This document shows positions 13,195 through 22,318 of a stretch of 37,318 bases of DNA, piece by piece. Numbering within the stretch: position 1 is the first letter of the stretch; each line of letters opens with the position of its first letter. The notes below the pieces were generated by a model that worked only from the letters and a program-made list of their open reading frames with translations, was not told the origin of the DNA and searched no databases. The translations under genes were made by a program, and so were the position numbers. The stretch is from the IMG/VR virus record IMGVR_UViG_3300021091_000192, positions 1-37,318 of that record. One strand, given 5' to 3'. The DNA is from a virus.

Positions 13195-13214
13195 TTGATA
13201 CGAATTCGTATCGC
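13195..13214. promoter_or_regulatory. Operator-like palindrome, copy 1
   Basis: Contains GATACGAATTCGTATC (13197-13212), a perfect 16-bp palindrome with GATAC half-sites separated by 6 bp. The identical palindrome recurs at 15330-15345, and a relative with the same half-sites lies at 15299-15318. Placement upstream of the small-gene cluster suggests repressor or activator binding. Confidence 0.55.
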
Positions 13215-13270: not shown

Positions 13271-13309
13271 CGCTTGGCTCTGTGGTTTTCCACAGGTAAG
13301 TCCAAGGCG
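13271..13309 (+). promoter_or_regulatory. Leader hairpin of the 45-aa gene
   Basis: A two-part stem: CTGTGG-tttt-CCACAG inside CGCTTGG...CCAAGGCG with a small internal loop. It sits 27 nt before the ATG at 13337, as do structured elements in front of many rightward genes here. Confidence 0.5.
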
Positions 13310-13336: not shown

Positions 13337-13474
13337 ATGCTTCGCCATCATCTATCTCTTGCTTTGGTTAAAGCTGCACACATTGTTGCAGAGGACCGCA
13401 GCAAGGAGAACATCCAGGCTTTCGTGAAGAAAACACGGGTAAAGATCGCCAAGGTGATCGAGCCTAAAGATTGA
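13337..13474 (+). CDS. 45-aa helical protein, unknown
   Basis: MLRHHLSLALVKAAHIVAED..., basic. The start ATG at 13337 is chosen over an upstream TTG (13274) because it is preceded by a real Shine-Dalgarno (TAGGAG, about 9 nt upstream), one of the few in this arm, and because the upstream part lies in the leader hairpin. The stop codon TGA (13472-13474) lies at the edge of the acceptor-like strand of the following tRNA-like element. Confidence 0.65.
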   Translation: MLRHHLSLALVKAAHIVAEDRSKENIQAFVKKTRVKIAKVIEPKD

Positions 13475-13545
13475 CCGTAACCAGGCGGTACCAGGGGTTC
13501 AAGTCCCCTGGCAATCATTGCCTCCAGCGGAGATAGGCACCGCAC
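13469..13545 (+). ncRNA. tRNA-like intercistronic element A plus hairpin module
   Basis: Outer stem GATTG/CAATC (13469-13473 with 13512-13516), a D-like hairpin ACCG-taaccagg-CGGT and a T-arm CCAGGGG-TTCAAGT-CCCCTGG whose loop has the canonical T-loop order T-T-C-A-A. The T-stem abuts the outer 3' strand with no linker, as in tRNA. The anticodon arm is absent. A module follows in which TGCCT can pair with AGGCA, or GCGG with CCGC. The upstream stop codon straddles the acceptor-like strand. No named RNA family recognised. Confidence 0.6.
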
Positions 13546-13557
13546 AACTACAAGACA

Positions 13558-13728
13558 ATGCAACTTACTTACCAACAACTGTTTAAGTTTATGGGTACAT
13601 TTAGTAACCAAGATTTAAGTGATGCTCAAACCATTGCTGAACATGTTCATCAAAAGCTTGGCAAAAGCTACAATCAAACGTTGCTAGACGTTTTAATTGA
13701 AATGCGTCAGCATCAAATAGCAAGCTGA
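13558..13728 (+). CDS. 56-aa protein, unknown
   Basis: MQLTYQQLFKFMGTFSNQDL..., helical, ending HQIAS. No Shine-Dalgarno; the ATG follows tRNA-like element A by 12 nt. The stop (13726-13728) lies in the outer stem of element B. The regular unit structure (element, short gene, element) supports its being real despite the small size. Confidence 0.65.
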   Translation: MQLTYQQLFKFMGTFSNQDLSDAQTIAEHVHQKLGKSYNQTLLDVLIEMRQHQIAS

Positions 13729-13797
13729 TCCGTTAAAGCGGGTGACCAGGTGCGAACCCTGGTCCAGTTATTGCCTTCAGCGGAGATAGGCACCGCA
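13723..13797 (+). ncRNA. tRNA-like intercistronic element B plus hairpin module
   Basis: Outer stem AGCTG/CAGTT (one G-U), D-like hairpin CCG-ttaaag-CGG, T-arm GACCAGG-TGCGAAC-CCTGGTC, again with no linker to the outer 3' strand. The downstream module differs from A by one base (TGCCTTCAGCGGAG), compatible with both alternative pairings. The stop codon of the 56-aa gene is inside the outer 5' strand. Confidence 0.6.
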
Positions 13798-13824
13798 CAG
13801 CAGGAGATTCCTGTGTTTAAGACT

Positions 13825-14139
13825 ATGGCTCACAGAGGGTTTCAAACAACTTTCCCGAACGGTTATACCGTTTCGGTAATGTTTGGTGCTGGTAGCTATT
13901 GTCAACAGCGCCATAATAAAGATATTCTGCCTGATCCCTGGGCATCAACTATTAAATGGGGAGAAATGCATCAATCAGTTGATGCTGAGATTCAGGTTTT
14001 TGGTCCAGACGACTGGGTTGTTTGCGGTTGGCCCGGTTGCCCCGATCTTGATATGGATCCGGATGTGGATCTGGTTAGAGGTTGTATTACTCCAGAGCAA
14101 ATGCTGGAAGTAATGAACTGGGCAGCATCTCAAAGCTGA
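13825..14139 (+). CDS. 104-aa acidic protein, unknown
   Basis: MAHRGFQTTFPNGYTVSVMFGAGSY... looks like a mixed alpha/beta domain with a C-terminal helix (TPEQMLEVMNWAASQS). The ATG at 13825 is preferred to an upstream ATG (13750), which would lie in the T-arm of element B. PNGYTVSV plus a later DDWVVCGWPGCPD resembles small conserved phage proteins, but I cannot name the family. The stop TGA is the start of element C's stem. Confidence 0.7.
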   Translation: MAHRGFQTTFPNGYTVSVMFGAGSYCQQRHNKDILPDPWASTIKWGEMHQSVDAEIQVFGPDDWVVCGWPGCPDLDMDPDVDLVRGCITPEQMLEVMNWAASQS

Positions 14140-14218
14140 ACTGTAGTACTTCACTTGTTGGAGGGCCAGGTGCAACTCCTGGCTTCAGTTATTGCCTCCA
14201 GCGGAGATAGGCACCGCA
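14134..14218 (+). ncRNA. tRNA-like intercistronic element C plus hairpin module
   Basis: Outer stem AGCTGAA/TTCAGTT (7 bp with one G-U), a smaller hairpin CTTC-acttgtt-GGAG in the D-arm position, T-arm GCCAGG-TGCAACT-CCTGGC abutting the outer 3' strand. The downstream TGCCT...AGGCA / GCGG...CCGC module is identical to that of A. The stop codon lies in the outer 5' strand. Confidence 0.6.
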
Positions 14219-14235
14219 CAACTCAACTCAATTCA

Positions 14236-14424
14236 ATGTCTACTCCTGACAAGACCGTTGCTGTTGAAACTGCACAAGCCATCTATTTCTTCTTTGTTTA
14301 CACAGAAGCAGATACGGTGCAGGTAACTAAACGGATACTGAAAGGACAGAAGGGTTACGACAAGAGCACCAGCCTTTCACTCGCTGGCGCTCGTAAGTTG
14401 TACGCCCAACTTTCAGCAAGCTGA
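14236..14424 (+). CDS. 62-aa protein, unknown
   Basis: MSTPDKTVAVETAQAIYFFFVYTEADTV..., small alpha/beta protein. The start at 14236 follows element C by 17 nt of unstructured CA/U-rich sequence without a Shine-Dalgarno. The pattern VQVTKRILKG...GYDKSTSLSLAGARKLYAQL suggests one conserved compact domain; family unknown. The stop is in element D. Confidence 0.65.
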   Translation: MSTPDKTVAVETAQAIYFFFVYTEADTVQVTKRILKGQKGYDKSTSLSLAGARKLYAQLSAS

Positions 14425-14484
14425 CAGGTAAAGCCTGTGGGGAGGTGCAAGTCCTCCCTCAGCTATTGCCAGGTAACACTGGCA
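14419..14484 (+). ncRNA. tRNA-like intercistronic element D plus hairpin
   Basis: Outer stem AGCTGA/TCAGCT (6 bp), D-like hairpin CAGG-taaag-CCTG, T-arm GGGAGG-TGCAAGT-CCTCCC with no linker. All stems are perfectly paired yet differ in sequence from A-C. The downstream hairpin is a simple TGCCAG-gtaaca-CTGGCA here instead of the A-C module. Confidence 0.6.
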
Positions 14485-14516
14485 TTCATTCAACTCAACT
14501 CCAACTGGACTCAACC

Positions 14517-14759
14517 ATGACTCCTAAAGCCGTTGAACGTTTACTCACACAAGAAGCACGCCTGCTTGCCAGGAGGGATGCGCCTGTCATCGATGAAGAA
14601 CTGGAGGCACAGCGTCAAGCTGCCCTCGAAGTATTCTTCAAATGGCAGGATCAACTGTGTGAGTTCCAAGATCTGGTTCCATTTTGTGCTGTGATTGAAC
14701 GCAAAGTTCAACTCAACAAAGCACTCATTGAATGGGAACTAGATCATCTGATTGATTGA
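14517..14759 (+). CDS. 80-aa helical protein, unknown
   Basis: MTPKAVERLLTQEARLLARRD..., Glu/Gln/Leu-rich helices throughout, suggesting a coiled-coil or helical bundle. Start at 14517 with CA-rich, SD-less leader, 32 nt after element D. Followed by two hairpins. Function not recognised. Confidence 0.7.
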   Translation: MTPKAVERLLTQEARLLARRDAPVIDEELEAQRQAALEVFFKWQDQLCEFQDLVPFCAVIERKVQLNKALIEWELDHLID

Positions 14760-14771
14760 TTTCTGCACTTT

Positions 14772-14811
14772 CCCATCGGCAACGATGGGTTTCTGCAGGA
14801 TTCACTCCTGC
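14772..14811 (+). promoter_or_regulatory. Two tandem leader hairpins
   Basis: CCCATCG-GCAA-CGATGGG (7-bp stem with a GNRA tetraloop) followed by GCAGGA-ttcac-TCCTGC. They lie between the 80-aa and 125-aa genes, the second ending 23 nt before the ATG. There is no strong U-tract, so a leader or processing element is more likely than a terminator. Confidence 0.55.
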
Positions 14812-14834
14812 TTGTCCCTTATTTCACATCAACC

Positions 14835-15298: not shown

Positions 15299-15318
15299 TT
15301 GATACACAACAGTATCAA
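15299..15318. promoter_or_regulatory. Operator-like palindrome, copy 2
   Basis: TTGATAC-acaaca-GTATCAA: the same half-sites and 6-bp spacing as copy 1, with a longer symmetric arm but a different spacer. Confidence 0.5.
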
Positions 15319-15327
15319 GTTTATTTC

Positions 15328-15347
15328 TTGATACGAATTCGTATCGG
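15328..15347. promoter_or_regulatory. Operator-like palindrome, copy 3
   Basis: Contains GATACGAATTCGTATC at 15330-15345, identical over 16 bp (19 bp including the flank TTG...G) to copy 1 more than 2 kb away. Copies 2 and 3 are adjacent (centres about 29 bp apart), suggesting cooperative binding of a dimeric regulator. Confidence 0.55.
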
Positions 15348-16863: not shown

Positions 16864-17199
16864 ATGCTTCACCCAATCACCCAAGAAATTGCCGAGTCCT
16901 TTGGCTACGTCCCCTTCTCGCCAGAAGAAGGTGAGCAACAGTACCAAGTCGAGGTCAACTACGACGGTAAGCAAGGCGAACGTCCAAAAAACGGCAGTGT
17001 CTACCGCAACAAACAAGGCATCCTCCGGTGCTACTGGAAACCTAAGTACGGCGACAAAGAACTCCAAGGATGGTACGACGTGCCAACCAACGAGGACATC
17101 GAAGAGTGGTCGTTCGACTCCATCGCGTTCACCCCGGACGAAGAAGAAGTTGAACCAGACCATCCCGACAGCTGGCTTAGGCTTCTCGGTTTGATTTAA
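16864..17199 (+). CDS. 111-aa acidic protein, unknown
   Basis: MLHPITQEIAESFGYVPFSP... with a beta-rich centre (YQVEVNYDG...GSVYRNKQGILRCYWKPKYG...GWYDV) that looks like a small SH3-like or beta-barrel domain, and an acidic C-terminal segment (TPDEEEVEPD). A long Ser/Thr/Lys-rich frame overlaps it on the same strand and is judged a shadow. Function unknown. Confidence 0.7.
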   Translation: MLHPITQEIAESFGYVPFSPEEGEQQYQVEVNYDGKQGERPKNGSVYRNKQGILRCYWKPKYGDKELQGWYDVPTNEDIEEWSFDSIAFTPDEEEVEPDHPDSWLRLLGLI

Positions 17200-19804: not shown

Positions 19805-20197
19805 ATGTCTCACTTTTTCAAACGCAATCCCAACGCAAGCCGAACAGATGCTTTAATTCAGGCAAGAAATTTTTTGGCAAAAGCCGAACCTTTTAATGAC
19901 AATGAAAATCTTTTCTTTTTTCAAGCGGCTACTTTGTTTTTAACTTATCAAGATGACAATGAGTTGTCTATGTCTGGTCAAGAAGAAATAACGAAGCTTG
20001 CAAAATACCTTGAAGAATTAACTTTTCAAGCAGCAATTTATGAAGGAATAAATAACGGTTTATTTATTCCATCGGTCGACGAAGATAATGAGCTCTGTTT
20101 AAAAGCAATTCCACAAGAAGAGTTTGCAGAAACAGGAGTATCCTCAGAAGTTCAAGCTGAATATAAACAGTTAAAAGATAATTATTTTAATGATTAA
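19805..20197 (+). CDS. 130-aa acidic helical protein, unknown
   Basis: MSHFFKRNPNASRTDALIQARNFLAKAEPF..., all-helical and acidic, with repeated Asp/Glu-Asn stretches. ATG 19805 preferred; the pseudoknot ATG at 19766 is in frame and would add a hydrophobic 13-residue extension. Ends 5 nt before pseudoknot copy 4. Function unknown. Confidence 0.7.
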   Translation: MSHFFKRNPNASRTDALIQARNFLAKAEPFNDNENLFFFQAATLFLTYQDDNELSMSGQEEITKLAKYLEELTFQAAIYEGINNGLFIPSVDEDNELCLKAIPQEEFAETGVSSEVQAEYKQLKDNYFND

Positions 20198-20258: not shown

Positions 20259-21980
20259 ATGGAATTTCGACTCCCAACTAATCTTCAATCTGAACTGTTG
20301 GCGTATGACCCACAGCTCAAAGCATTGGCTCGTCAACAGAAAACAAATAACAAACCAGTTAAGAAATCTAAATATCCTCTTGGTAATGTTCCTCACCTTA
20401 TTCCGTATTCGGTAGTGAGAGAATCATTGCAGCAAGATGCAATCGATAATATCAATGCCAATCAAGCAAAACATCGATTCCAAAAATTTACTACGCCTGT
20501 GGATGTTGCTACTCCGCAGGCTCGCATTATTACAAAAGCCATCCTTTATCACTACGAGCAGTGCTGGTATGCAGCATGGCTTCCACGGCAGGGTGAAGAT
20601 TATGTGTATGGTTTTGCAACTGCGTTTAAGGATACGGCTACTGCGCGTAAAGCTCTTTCTCGTTCGATTAGTAACGACATTCAAGACTGCATGGAAATAG
20701 CTGTTGGCCGTACCAAGTTTTTGGTTTATCGGAAACTTGTAACTAAAGCTGACATTCAAGCTGGTCTTACTCAGCATCGTTGGCGTGCTGAGCACGTTGC
20801 TTCTTATTACGAAAAGGCTCGTGAACTTGCGCCAGCAATTGATTCATTTCGTGAAGCATTGCAAGAAACTATTCCCACCTGGGATGATCATCGTGAAATG
20901 TTTTCACGTATGTGTTGCAGTGAACTTTATGACGCTCTTGAAATCAACAAAGAATTAATTCCTGAACACAAACGTGTGGGCTGGGAGCTAACTATTGATA
21001 ACTTGTTGGAAGCTTTTGGTAGACGTGATGAAGCCTATGGTGCTAACTCGTATCGTGATATTGAATACGGTTATGTAATTAACAACTTGCGTGTATTGAA
21101 CACGCCGTTCTTTCGTAAGTGGATTCAACAAGAACTAAATAGTTGTATTGAAACCTATAACAATCCACTTAACCGTAAACATCGTGAAGTAAAGCGTGGT
21201 TTGATGCGTATCCTAAAACTTGCGGCTGCTGTGGAATACGTCAACGCTATTTGGCCAGATTGTCCGGTTGATTATTACCAGCGGCACATGGATCAGTTGG
21301 TAAAACTTCAGTTGCGTGATCGTAGTTATGACGTTACTCGTGAATGGCTGAGGCAACATATGCCTGTTGCTTCTTTCTTTAAAATCGTTGATAAGTATTG
21401 TGAAGAACAGGAAGCTTTGCAAACAAATACTCGTTCATCTATTAGTGATTCCACTGGCTACAAAGTCTTTTGGTTTTCAGATTGGAACGACACGCTTTCT
21501 ATGATTACTCGTGTTTTAAACAATGACAAGCCATTGACTCCACCTAAGCGTTGGCGCTTGGCTGAGTTCCATGATTATGTTCAGGCTGAGTCTTGGAAAA
21601 TTCAAAATCCAAACGAAGGTTTGCCCCAAGATTTGTTCCCTGAACCAATTAAGGTTGAGTATAACAACAAGTCGTGGTCATTCTTCCAGCCACATGACAC
21701 ACATCAACTGGCAGCCTGGGGAAAAGCCGTACGTAATTGCGTTGGCTCTGCATCTGGTTACGCCGAAGGCGTGCGCAAAAAGCAACACTTCATTGTGTTG
21801 TGCATGGTTGATGGTCAGCCACAGTTCACCATTCAATTACGCGTCAGTAATGGTCTGATGTCTGTTGAGCAAATCCGTGGGCTGTGTAATGCCGTACTCA
21901 ATACGGATCTCAAGGAACAATACACAGAAGCCTTTAGGCTTGCGCTGCAAACTCGTGAAGCTGCGCTAATATCTGCGTAG
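20259..21980 (+). CDS. PcfJ-domain-like protein
   Basis: A 573-aa protein. The C-terminal part (residues about 485-555) has AAWGKAVRNCVGSASGYAEGV, KKQHFIVLCMVDGQPQFTIQLR and VEQIRGLCN. This is the PcfJ-type arrangement (hxxCVxxYxxxhxxGxxxIhxhxxxGxPxhThEh...hxQxxGxxN). PcfJ-like proteins occur on conjugative plasmids and in many phages, with unknown biochemical function. The N-terminal 450 residues are helical without a recognised domain. Upstream is leader pseudoknot copy 4; a hairpin follows the stop. The position among replication genes suggests a DNA-related role. Confidence 0.65.
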   Translation: MEFRLPTNLQSELLAYDPQLKALARQQKTNNKPVKKSKYPLGNVPHLIPYSVVRESLQQDAIDNINANQAKHRFQKFTTPVDVATPQARIITKAILYHYEQCWYAAWLPRQGEDYVYGFATAFKDTATARKALSRSISNDIQDCMEIAVGRTKFLVYRKLVTKADIQAGLTQHRWRAEHVASYYEKARELAPAIDSFREALQETIPTWDDHREMFSRMCCSELYDALEINKELIPEHKRVGWELTIDNLLEAFGRRDEAYGANSYRDIEYGYVINNLRVLNTPFFRKWIQQELNSCIETYNNPLNRKHREVKRGLMRILKLAAAVEYVNAIWPDCPVDYYQRHMDQLVKLQLRDRSYDVTREWLRQHMPVASFFKIVDKYCEEQEALQTNTRSSISDSTGYKVFWFSDWNDTLSMITRVLNNDKPLTPPKRWRLAEFHDYVQAESWKIQNPNEGLPQDLFPEPIKVEYNNKSWSFFQPHDTHQLAAWGKAVRNCVGSASGYAEGVRKKQHFIVLCMVDGQPQFTIQLRVSNGLMSVEQIRGLCNAVLNTDLKEQYTEAFRLALQTREAALISA

Positions 21981-22032: not shown

Positions 22033-22251
22033 ATGACTGACTATACCGATGATCAACTCCTTGCTATGGCACTTGGAAACATCGGAGACTTTATCCATGA
22101 CAACTCTCCTCACTACGTCTTAATTGAAGAAGATCCTCGCAACGAAGAGGACTATGACAGTTGGACGTATGGAATGGAAGTGTTGCCTCAGGATCACACT
22201 TGGCGTTCATCTTCAATAGAAGTTGAAGTAAGTCCAAGTGAGCCCGAGTAG
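22033..22251 (+). CDS. 72-aa very acidic protein, unknown
   Basis: MTDYTDDQLLAMALGNIGDFIHDNSP..., rich in Asp/Glu, ending SPSEPE. The stop codon TAG (22249-22251) is inside the tRNA that follows, whose 5' end is at 22242. No family recognised. Acidic DNA-mimic proteins occur in phages, but nothing specific supports that here. Confidence 0.7.
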   Translation: MTDYTDDQLLAMALGNIGDFIHDNSPHYVLIEEDPRNEEDYDSWTYGMEVLPQDHTWRSSSIEVEVSPSEPE

Positions 22252-22318
22252 CCCAGCGGTAGTAGGCAAACGACTTAAAATCGTTCCAGCGTGAGTTCGA
22301 ATCTCACCTCGGGTACCA
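22242..22318 (+). tRNA. tRNA with anticodon UAA (Leu-type) on a class I scaffold
   Basis: Acceptor GCCCGAG (22242-22248) with CTCGGGT (22308-22314), discriminator A and encoded CCA. D stem GCC/GGC with GG in the loop. Anticodon stem AACGA/TCGTT with loop CTTAAAA, giving anticodon TAA at 22276-22278. T-arm GTGAG-TTCGAAT-CTCAC. The variable loop is only 5 nt (CCAGC), whereas bacterial tRNA-Leu normally has a long variable arm. It overlaps the stop codon of the upstream gene, and the next ATG follows 22 nt after CCA. Confidence 0.9.

Follow-up and report, generated by a model that had tools for sequence, protein, structure and literature searches.

Small genes separated by repeated, apparently folded segments that reach into their stop codons raise the question of what such segments are and what they do to the mRNA that carries them. 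This arrangement is present in IMG/VR virus record IMGVR_UViG_3300021091_000192, whose 37,318 nucleotides were analysed in full (hereafter the window) and whose terminase region displays ≈72% DNA identity to that of the freshwater Synechococcus phage S-EIV1. Five small genes (13337-14759), for which no significant PHROG or Pfam family was found, constitute here the start of a rightward gene set adjoining a long non-coding stretch, and the initial annotation had described the segments following the first four of them as tRNA-like elements devoid of an anticodon arm (elements A to D; Table 1).

Architecture of the elements

The positions, T-loops and following ATTGCC claimed for elements A to D were all found as described. 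In the plan that emerges from the window and its relatives, an outer stem (P1) of 4-8 bp encloses an insert, most often a short D-like hairpin, and a T-arm; the 3’ strands of T-arm and P1 join without linker, and an anticodon arm is absent from the parsed elements. Such a D-like hairpin, initially ascribed to every element, is clear in A, B and D, whereas element C carries a different, longer insert. Similarly, ATTGCC indeed follows each of the four, but it does not mark the end of the conserved structure, because a conserved pseudoknot (A, B and C) or a plain hairpin (D) directly adjoins.

Table 1. Positions of genes and structured elements in the window, and of a hairpin in loci of T7-like cyanophages
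Feature	Position	Strand	Details
Gene 1, 45 aa	13337..13474	+	Stop TGA at 13472, within element A; no PHROG/Pfam family
Element A	13469..13517	+	Outer stem GATTG/CAATC; D-like hairpin ACCG(TAACCAGG)CGGT
Element A T-arm	within 13469..13517	+	CCAGGGG-TTCAAGT-CCCCTGG; discriminator-like A at 13517
Pseudoknot 3’ of A	13518..13543	+	Stem 1 13519-13523/13535-13539; stem 2 13527-13530/13540-13543; two-sided covariation in relatives
Gene 2, 56 aa	13558..13728	+	Stop TGA at 13726, within element B; no PHROG/Pfam family
Element B	13723..13770	+	Outer stem AGCTG/CAGTT; D-like hairpin, GTTAAAG loop
Element B T-arm	within 13723..13770	+	GACCAGG-TGCGAAC-CCTGGTC; discriminator-like A at 13770
Pseudoknot 3’ of B	13771..13796	+	
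Possible hairpin	13799..13815	+	CAGGAG-ATT-CCTGTG; contains ribosome-binding sequence and GTG start of gene 3; from sequence only
Gene 3, 108 aa, GTG start	13813..14139	+	Stop TGA at 14137, within element C; no PHROG/Pfam family
Element C	14134..14191	+	Outer stem AGCTGA(A)/(T)TCAGTT; long divergent insert replaces D-like hairpin
Element C T-arm	within 14134..14191	+	GCCAGG-TGCAACT-CCTGGC; A at 14191
Pseudoknot 3’ of C	14192..14217	+	
Gene 4, 62 aa	14236..14424	+	Stop TGA at 14422, within element D; no PHROG/Pfam family
Element D	14419..14465	+	Outer stem AGCTGA/TCAGCT; hairpin CAGG(TAAAG)CCTG
Element D T-arm	within 14419..14465	+	GGGAGG-TGCAAGT-CCTCCC; A at 14465
Plain hairpin 3’ of D	14466..14484	+	TGCCAG-GTAACA-CTGGCA, in the pseudoknot’s place; z -4.11
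Gene 5, 80 aa, final cluster gene	14517..14759	+	No tRNA-like element 3’ of gene
Scaffold-capsid hairpin	L161 about 17170-17190		
Scaffold-capsid hairpin	L163 about 19890-19910		
Scaffold-capsid hairpin	L162 about 20690-20715		
Scaffold-capsid hairpin	L158 34605-34780		
Scaffold-capsid hairpin	L160 about 22220		

A covariance model trained on relatives, with A, B and D among its training sequences, matched elements A to D (E 8.7e-11, 2.1e-15, 1.5e-5 and 1.1e-12, respectively) and zero further full-length copies in the whole window. Folding z-scores were -3.83 (A), -3.13 (B) and -3.40 (D); that of element C, only -1.14, is on its own no better than shuffles, and the same subtype occurs in three related loci (L001, L022 and L023). 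Elements A to D go undetected by the tRNA models applied to the window (ARAGORN and Rfam RF00005).

The dimensions of the fold recall the top half of a tRNA. Twelve base pairs for P1 and T-arm together, with a 7-nt loop and one unpaired base, represent the commonest outcome (25/51) of a parse that imposed no length, in a set made up of the first relatives, which had been found via the pseudoknot and not via the tRNA-like part. The 12-bp stack with a 7-nt T-loop is also commonest in a larger, preselected set (126/204), in which the division between P1 and T-stem varies (5+7, 6+6, 7+5) and the sum stays near 12. In class 2 elements, characterised by an ATCGAAT loop, pairing of bases 54 and 60 is always possible, which makes a stack of 13 bp closed by a 5-base loop an equally good reading. 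The outermost P1 pair is weak, being A-U, G-U or, in class 2, mismatched.

The unpaired, discriminator-like base is an A in 250 of 281 elements and is followed by T-T, which was itself part of that search. An anchor-free search (n=233) yielded TTGCC (143) or TTACC (30) right after this base, with 20 more one base later, and no CCA among the junctions tabulated. The junction is followed 3’ by either a pseudoknot of the form TGCCY-loop-GCGG-AGAT-RGGCA-CCGC or a plain hairpin, the latter behind 130 of the 281 relatives, and then by the next start codon. The layout of the possible hairpin around the start of gene 3 is also seen again in relatives.

Several further sequence features surround the cluster. 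A perfect palindrome, GATACGAATTCGTATC, flanks it on both sides (13197-13212 and 15330-15345); a third, less exact copy lies at about 15301-15316, and these copies are possible operator sites. The sole tRNA recovered from the window by ARAGORN (run for tRNA and tmRNA) and RF00005 is a tRNA-Leu(UAA) at 22242-22318, with its CCA encoded; its leader GTAAGTCCAAG, nearly constant among relatives, reappears with the same 11 bases at 13296-13306, in the 5’ leader of the cluster’s first gene. A different structured stretch, located 3’ of the last cluster gene (14757-14820), comprises CTGCA, a CCC..GGG hairpin and TGCAGG-7 nt-CCTGC, and recurs in locus L014 (about 2450-2520), where a pseudoknot follows without a tRNA-like element.

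A widespread family in freshwater and marine phages

The search for more copies that the initial annotation had suggested confirmed that elements A to D belong to a widespread family of structured RNA that is not represented in Rfam and is far larger than had been reported. A descriptor retrieved 281 distinct elements from 153 fetched loci (1.4 Mb) and 4 from the reversed-sequence control; an exact 19-base piece of the pseudoknot was present in 62 IMG/VR stretches, and two tRNA-like patterns in 108 and 27. Whole-record searches (37 records) revealed one cluster per phage with up to about six copies, and the window’s terminase is common to 30 of 36 viral records.

The family is carried by S-EIV1-like freshwater Synechococcus phages and by isolated T7-like cyanophages. 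S-EIV1 possesses two copies, one with a TACC/GGTA pseudoknot stem. NATL2A-133, 9515-10a, P-SSP10 and S-CBP2 together gave 7 descriptor matches (0 in reversed controls), every one followed by a hairpin, and in Syn5, P60 and P-SSP7, where elements were found by model, one element is situated 5’ of the major capsid gene, at a place without an annotated RNA feature. The layout is the same in these distant isolates. The isolates searched were few, and nine further phages, run with the class-1 model only, gave no match (T7, lambda, Syn9, P-SSM2, P-SS2, S-RIP1, S-CBP4, Pf-WMP3 and S-CBS2).

Pseudoknots without a tRNA-like element directly upstream were seen in L012, L013, L014, L027, L056 and L059, and the records of L012 (G005) and L027 (G010) contain no class-1 or class-2 match at all. 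The two parts are thus not strictly linked, because the pseudoknot stands alone in some loci.

A cellular origin was rejected, since the exact main-class pattern had two matches only in 84,980 bacterial genomes, both in a shared protein-like reading frame and without the fold. Membership of a known RNA family or riboswitch was likewise rejected, nothing in Rfam reaching the gathering score, and no earlier description of these elements was found among the open-access papers and Rfam families searched.

Other structured RNA was noted in the T7-like cyanophages. P-SSP7 (L162, 20522-20679) and 9515-10a (L158, 35862-35917) carry a Glutamine-II riboswitch in the vicinity of psbA and the capsid gene, and in P-SSP7 the short reading frame MKVTFVYRGVAYTRVIG 3’ of this riboswitch ends within a tRNA-like element. 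The scaffold-capsid stretch contains a common short hairpin with a GGATACC-like or similar tail (Table 1), which is not an Rfam family where searched.

Covariation and the tRNA elbow

Homologues with conserved folding, whose absence would have spoken against the proposed fold, were abundant. In 35 class 1 relatives 96.4% of cells were paired, against 35-51% when the partner was slid, and two-sided change was observed at 14 of 16 pairs. The corresponding values were 98.2% and 9 of 15 pairs for class 2 (15 sequences), and 99.1% and 5 of 9 pairs for the pseudoknot (26 sequences), for which the ‘further types’ measure was not above shuffles. Because the sequences are related, p-like values obtained from them overstate independence. 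A chance fold is ruled out by compensatory change and the reversed-sequence control (281 versus 4; named phages 7 versus 0).

Coupling between the loops extends the resemblance beyond the stems. T-loop bases 55-56 covary with the two bases at the 3’ end of the D-like loop: GC is associated with AG in 180 cases (CG in 4), TC with GG in 24 of 24, 17 of these being a GGT linker, and GT with CA in 5 of 5. Fisher tests on distinct combinations gave p values of 8e-15 (55/18) and 6e-4 (56/19); the T.G pair was left out of the stem after a first version of the test, which counted that pair, had failed, so that the final test was shaped by the first outcome. In real tRNA, base 56 pairs with base 19 and base 18 contacts base 55 (PMC4810234). 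Considering this pairing, the GC/AG and GT/CA loops imply that 19-56 switches here from G-C to A-U. The elements would thereby make, as the loop covariation indirectly suggests, the D-loop/T-loop elbow contacts 18-55 and 19-56 of tRNA, and this covariation is the strongest evidence for a tRNA-like fold rather than a mere three-way junction. It also indicates the range over which a tRNA elbow can vary and still form. Together with the usual 12 bp, elbow covariation sharpens the claim of tRNA-likeness without an anticodon arm, which is strongly supported.

Stop codons and generic use

The claim that each element spans the preceding stop codon holds for all four elements of the window, in which the first nucleotide of the stop is outer-stem base +3 (4/4), and for most relatives, but is not universal. 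Among 123 genes lying between two elements, from which the stop and start statistics derive, the stop codon overlaps or abuts P1 in 101, begins at +2/+3 in 94 and is TGA in 104; where TAA takes the place of TGA at this site, the base paired with the altered position is T instead of C. Of the 29 genes ending at other positions, 26 nonetheless keep a stop triplet at +2/+3 of P1, and retention of the triplet even where it is not the gene’s stop argues against a strict need. The annotated stops of the isolates are at +3 for four elements and at +0, +11, +11 and +13 for others; in P-SSP7, by our reading, the stop of a 17-codon frame just 3’ of the Glutamine-II riboswitch is situated at +11.

The next start codon mostly follows TT by 42-44 nt behind pseudoknots and by 30-37 nt behind hairpins, and leaders contain a ribosome-binding-like sequence in 52 of 92 cases after pseudoknots and in 1 of 31 after hairpins. 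The 123 genes fall into 33 families. Homologous genes in different phages are flanked by differing element classes on both sides, almost like unrelated genes, with identities of 0.77 versus 0.72 for the TLS and 0.78 versus 0.77 for the 5’ stem (homologous versus unrelated or random genes). Since homologous genes swap element types, the function is generic, and pseudoknot and hairpin, as well as the tRNA-like classes, are exchangeable. A gene-specific riboswitch was rejected, because homologous genes change T-loop class and pseudoknot or hairpin (TLS 0.77, random 0.72). An intrinsic terminator (a G+C-rich hairpin with a U run) was also rejected, as no terminator-like site is present at A to D.

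Proposed processing and alternative readings

RNase Z grips CCA-less tRNA precursors at the elbow and along the acceptor/T-arm. RNase P, RNase Z and CCA-adding enzymes read the acceptor/T-arm stack, the T-loop and the elbow, not the anticodon (PMC4810234, PMC4919913); RNase Z recognises the elbow and the 3’ region, with CCA acting as an antideterminant (PMC4919913), and is activated by downstream uracils according to a title cited in the same paper. Pre-tRNA without the D or anticodon arm is still a substrate of archaeal RNase Zs (PMC7479834), and cyanobacteria possess RNases Z, P, E and J (PMC10989914). The elements display the features of an RNase Z substrate, namely the tRNA top half, a discriminator base and no downstream CCA. 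We infer processing by RNase P or RNase Z, and assign a probability of approximately 0.5 to the reading in which recognition of the elements by host RNase Z, possibly aided by RNase P, leads to cutting of the viral mRNA, which would make them candidate punctuation marks.

Under this reading, anticodon-less tRNA mimics would punctuate a polycistronic phage mRNA, and host RNase Z would cut after the discriminator-like base (13517/13518, 13770/13771, 14191/14192 and 14465/14466). The upstream mRNA would then end in a compact, possibly CCA-tailed, tRNA-like structure, and the downstream mRNA would begin with UU and a stem, resisting 5’-end-dependent decay by RNase E/J. As the predicted cut would leave the downstream mRNA with a single base ahead of its first stem, and the upstream mRNA with a tRNA-like 3’ end, it would explain why pseudoknot and hairpin interchange even before homologous genes. 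A ribosome terminating at the embedded stop would have to open the outer stem, so that the element could fold and be cut only once ribosomes have cleared the upstream 3’ end. That a host tRNA-maturation enzyme has in this manner been turned into an mRNA cutter, with a mark that includes the upstream stop and cutting timed by termination, is proposed only tentatively.

The same folds could instead act uncut, as structural insulators that remain with the following stem in one mRNA, block exonucleases and separate translation without tRNA enzymes. The folding z-scores indicate stable folds, the pseudoknot and hairpin stems are interchangeable, and mRNA protection matters to such phages: according to a review of earlier work (PMC9692554), P-SSP7 infection alters host RNase E expression and antisense RNAs shield phage transcripts from RNase E. 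An insulator would not need the exact acceptor/T-arm length, the T-loop or co-evolving elbow bases, which makes this explanation unlikely.

Cleavage at the 5’ side by RNase P, alone or in combination with RNase Z, would free a small RNA and leave an upstream mRNA without its stop, serving as a switch or quality-control trigger. RNase P gauges both elbow and acceptor/T-arm stack, and its substrates include tRNA-like RNAs that are not tRNAs (PMC4919913); that 94 of 123 genes have their stop at +2/+3 would suit this role. No RNase P-type 5’ preference was apparent at the class 1 outer stem (U-1 20%, G+1 30%), this being a preference and not a strict requirement; the outer pair is weak, and loss of the stop codon would be costly, so that we regard this scenario as rather improbable. 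One base followed by UU, and no CCA, fit RNase Z better than RNase P as judged from sequence features, which do not call for RNase P; a cut by it at the 5’ side may also occur, with non-stop mRNA, as the initial annotation had envisaged, a possible consequence. Base -1 of class 1 is enriched in C (51%) with G nearly absent (4%), though it is usually a third codon position, and shared gene ancestry may explain this.

A ribosome-directed role, in which the elbow mimic holds the terminating ribosome or ribosome parts and aids re-initiation at the next gene, seems more doubtful still. The stop inside the element, the narrow distance to the start (42-44 nt after TT for most pseudoknots) and the reading of the elbow by the ribosome (PMC4810234) agree with it, but an anticodon arm is lacking, 52 of 92 downstream genes after pseudoknots have their own ribosome-binding sequence, and the terminating ribosome must itself open the outer stem. 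Finally, that the repeats are mainly recombination cassette borders shuffling small genes, with RNA folding secondary, is very improbable: gene order and element type have been reshuffled from phage to phage and each genome has one cluster, but pairs, those of pseudoknot and elbow included, persist through compensatory change, at the expense of DNA identity.

Significance and comparison with known systems

If processing by RNase Z is confirmed, this enzyme (and perhaps RNase P) would gain a role in viral mRNA maturation, the manner in which such phages separate the genes of one transcript would be explained, and a compact, exchangeable part for mRNA processing in cyanobacteria would become available. 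Such elements would represent a new class of gene-expression element used by freshwater and ocean phages; even without cutting, they constitute a structured RNA family of wide occurrence that Rfam lacks. The idea is directly testable, since the elements are present in isolated cyanophages (P-SSP7, Syn5).

Mimicry of tRNA is known from RNA viruses and a few cellular RNAs, and to our knowledge no bacterial DNA virus places tRNA mimics between genes. In plant RNA viruses, tRNA-like structures occupy the 3’ end of the RNA genome and can be aminoacylated, whereas the phage elements are internal, intercistronic, repeated and carried by DNA phages. Both mimic the tRNA elbow in viral RNA (e.g. TYMV; PMC4810234), the topology of the plant-virus structures differing elsewhere through pseudoknotting (PMC4810234). 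The mascRNA/menRNA of MALAT1 and MEN-beta is likewise a tRNA-like RNA inside a longer transcript, and mascRNA-menRNA (RF01684) is the best tRNA-like Rfam match of element A, though not a significant one (15.7 bits, E 5.9, cut-off 42.5). These RNAs, released by tRNA enzymes, are candidate functional counterparts; unlike them, the phage elements lack an anticodon-side arm and lie between protein genes, over a stop codon, in a bacterial DNA virus. The tRNA-like domain of tmRNA also combines an acceptor and a T-arm with an elbow and no anticodon arm, but the phage elements have neither a CCA end nor a tag reading frame, and ARAGORN reports no tmRNA in the window. RNase III sites between T7 genes are intercistronic structures that divide T7 mRNAs; they are long hairpins and not a branched tRNA-like fold, and the class-1 model finds nothing in T7. 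The punctuation of mitochondrial polycistronic RNA, in which a tRNA fold between genes is the cutting signal, resembles what is proposed here from sequence, the mitochondrial marks being tRNA genes and the phage marks anticodon-less mimics without CCA.
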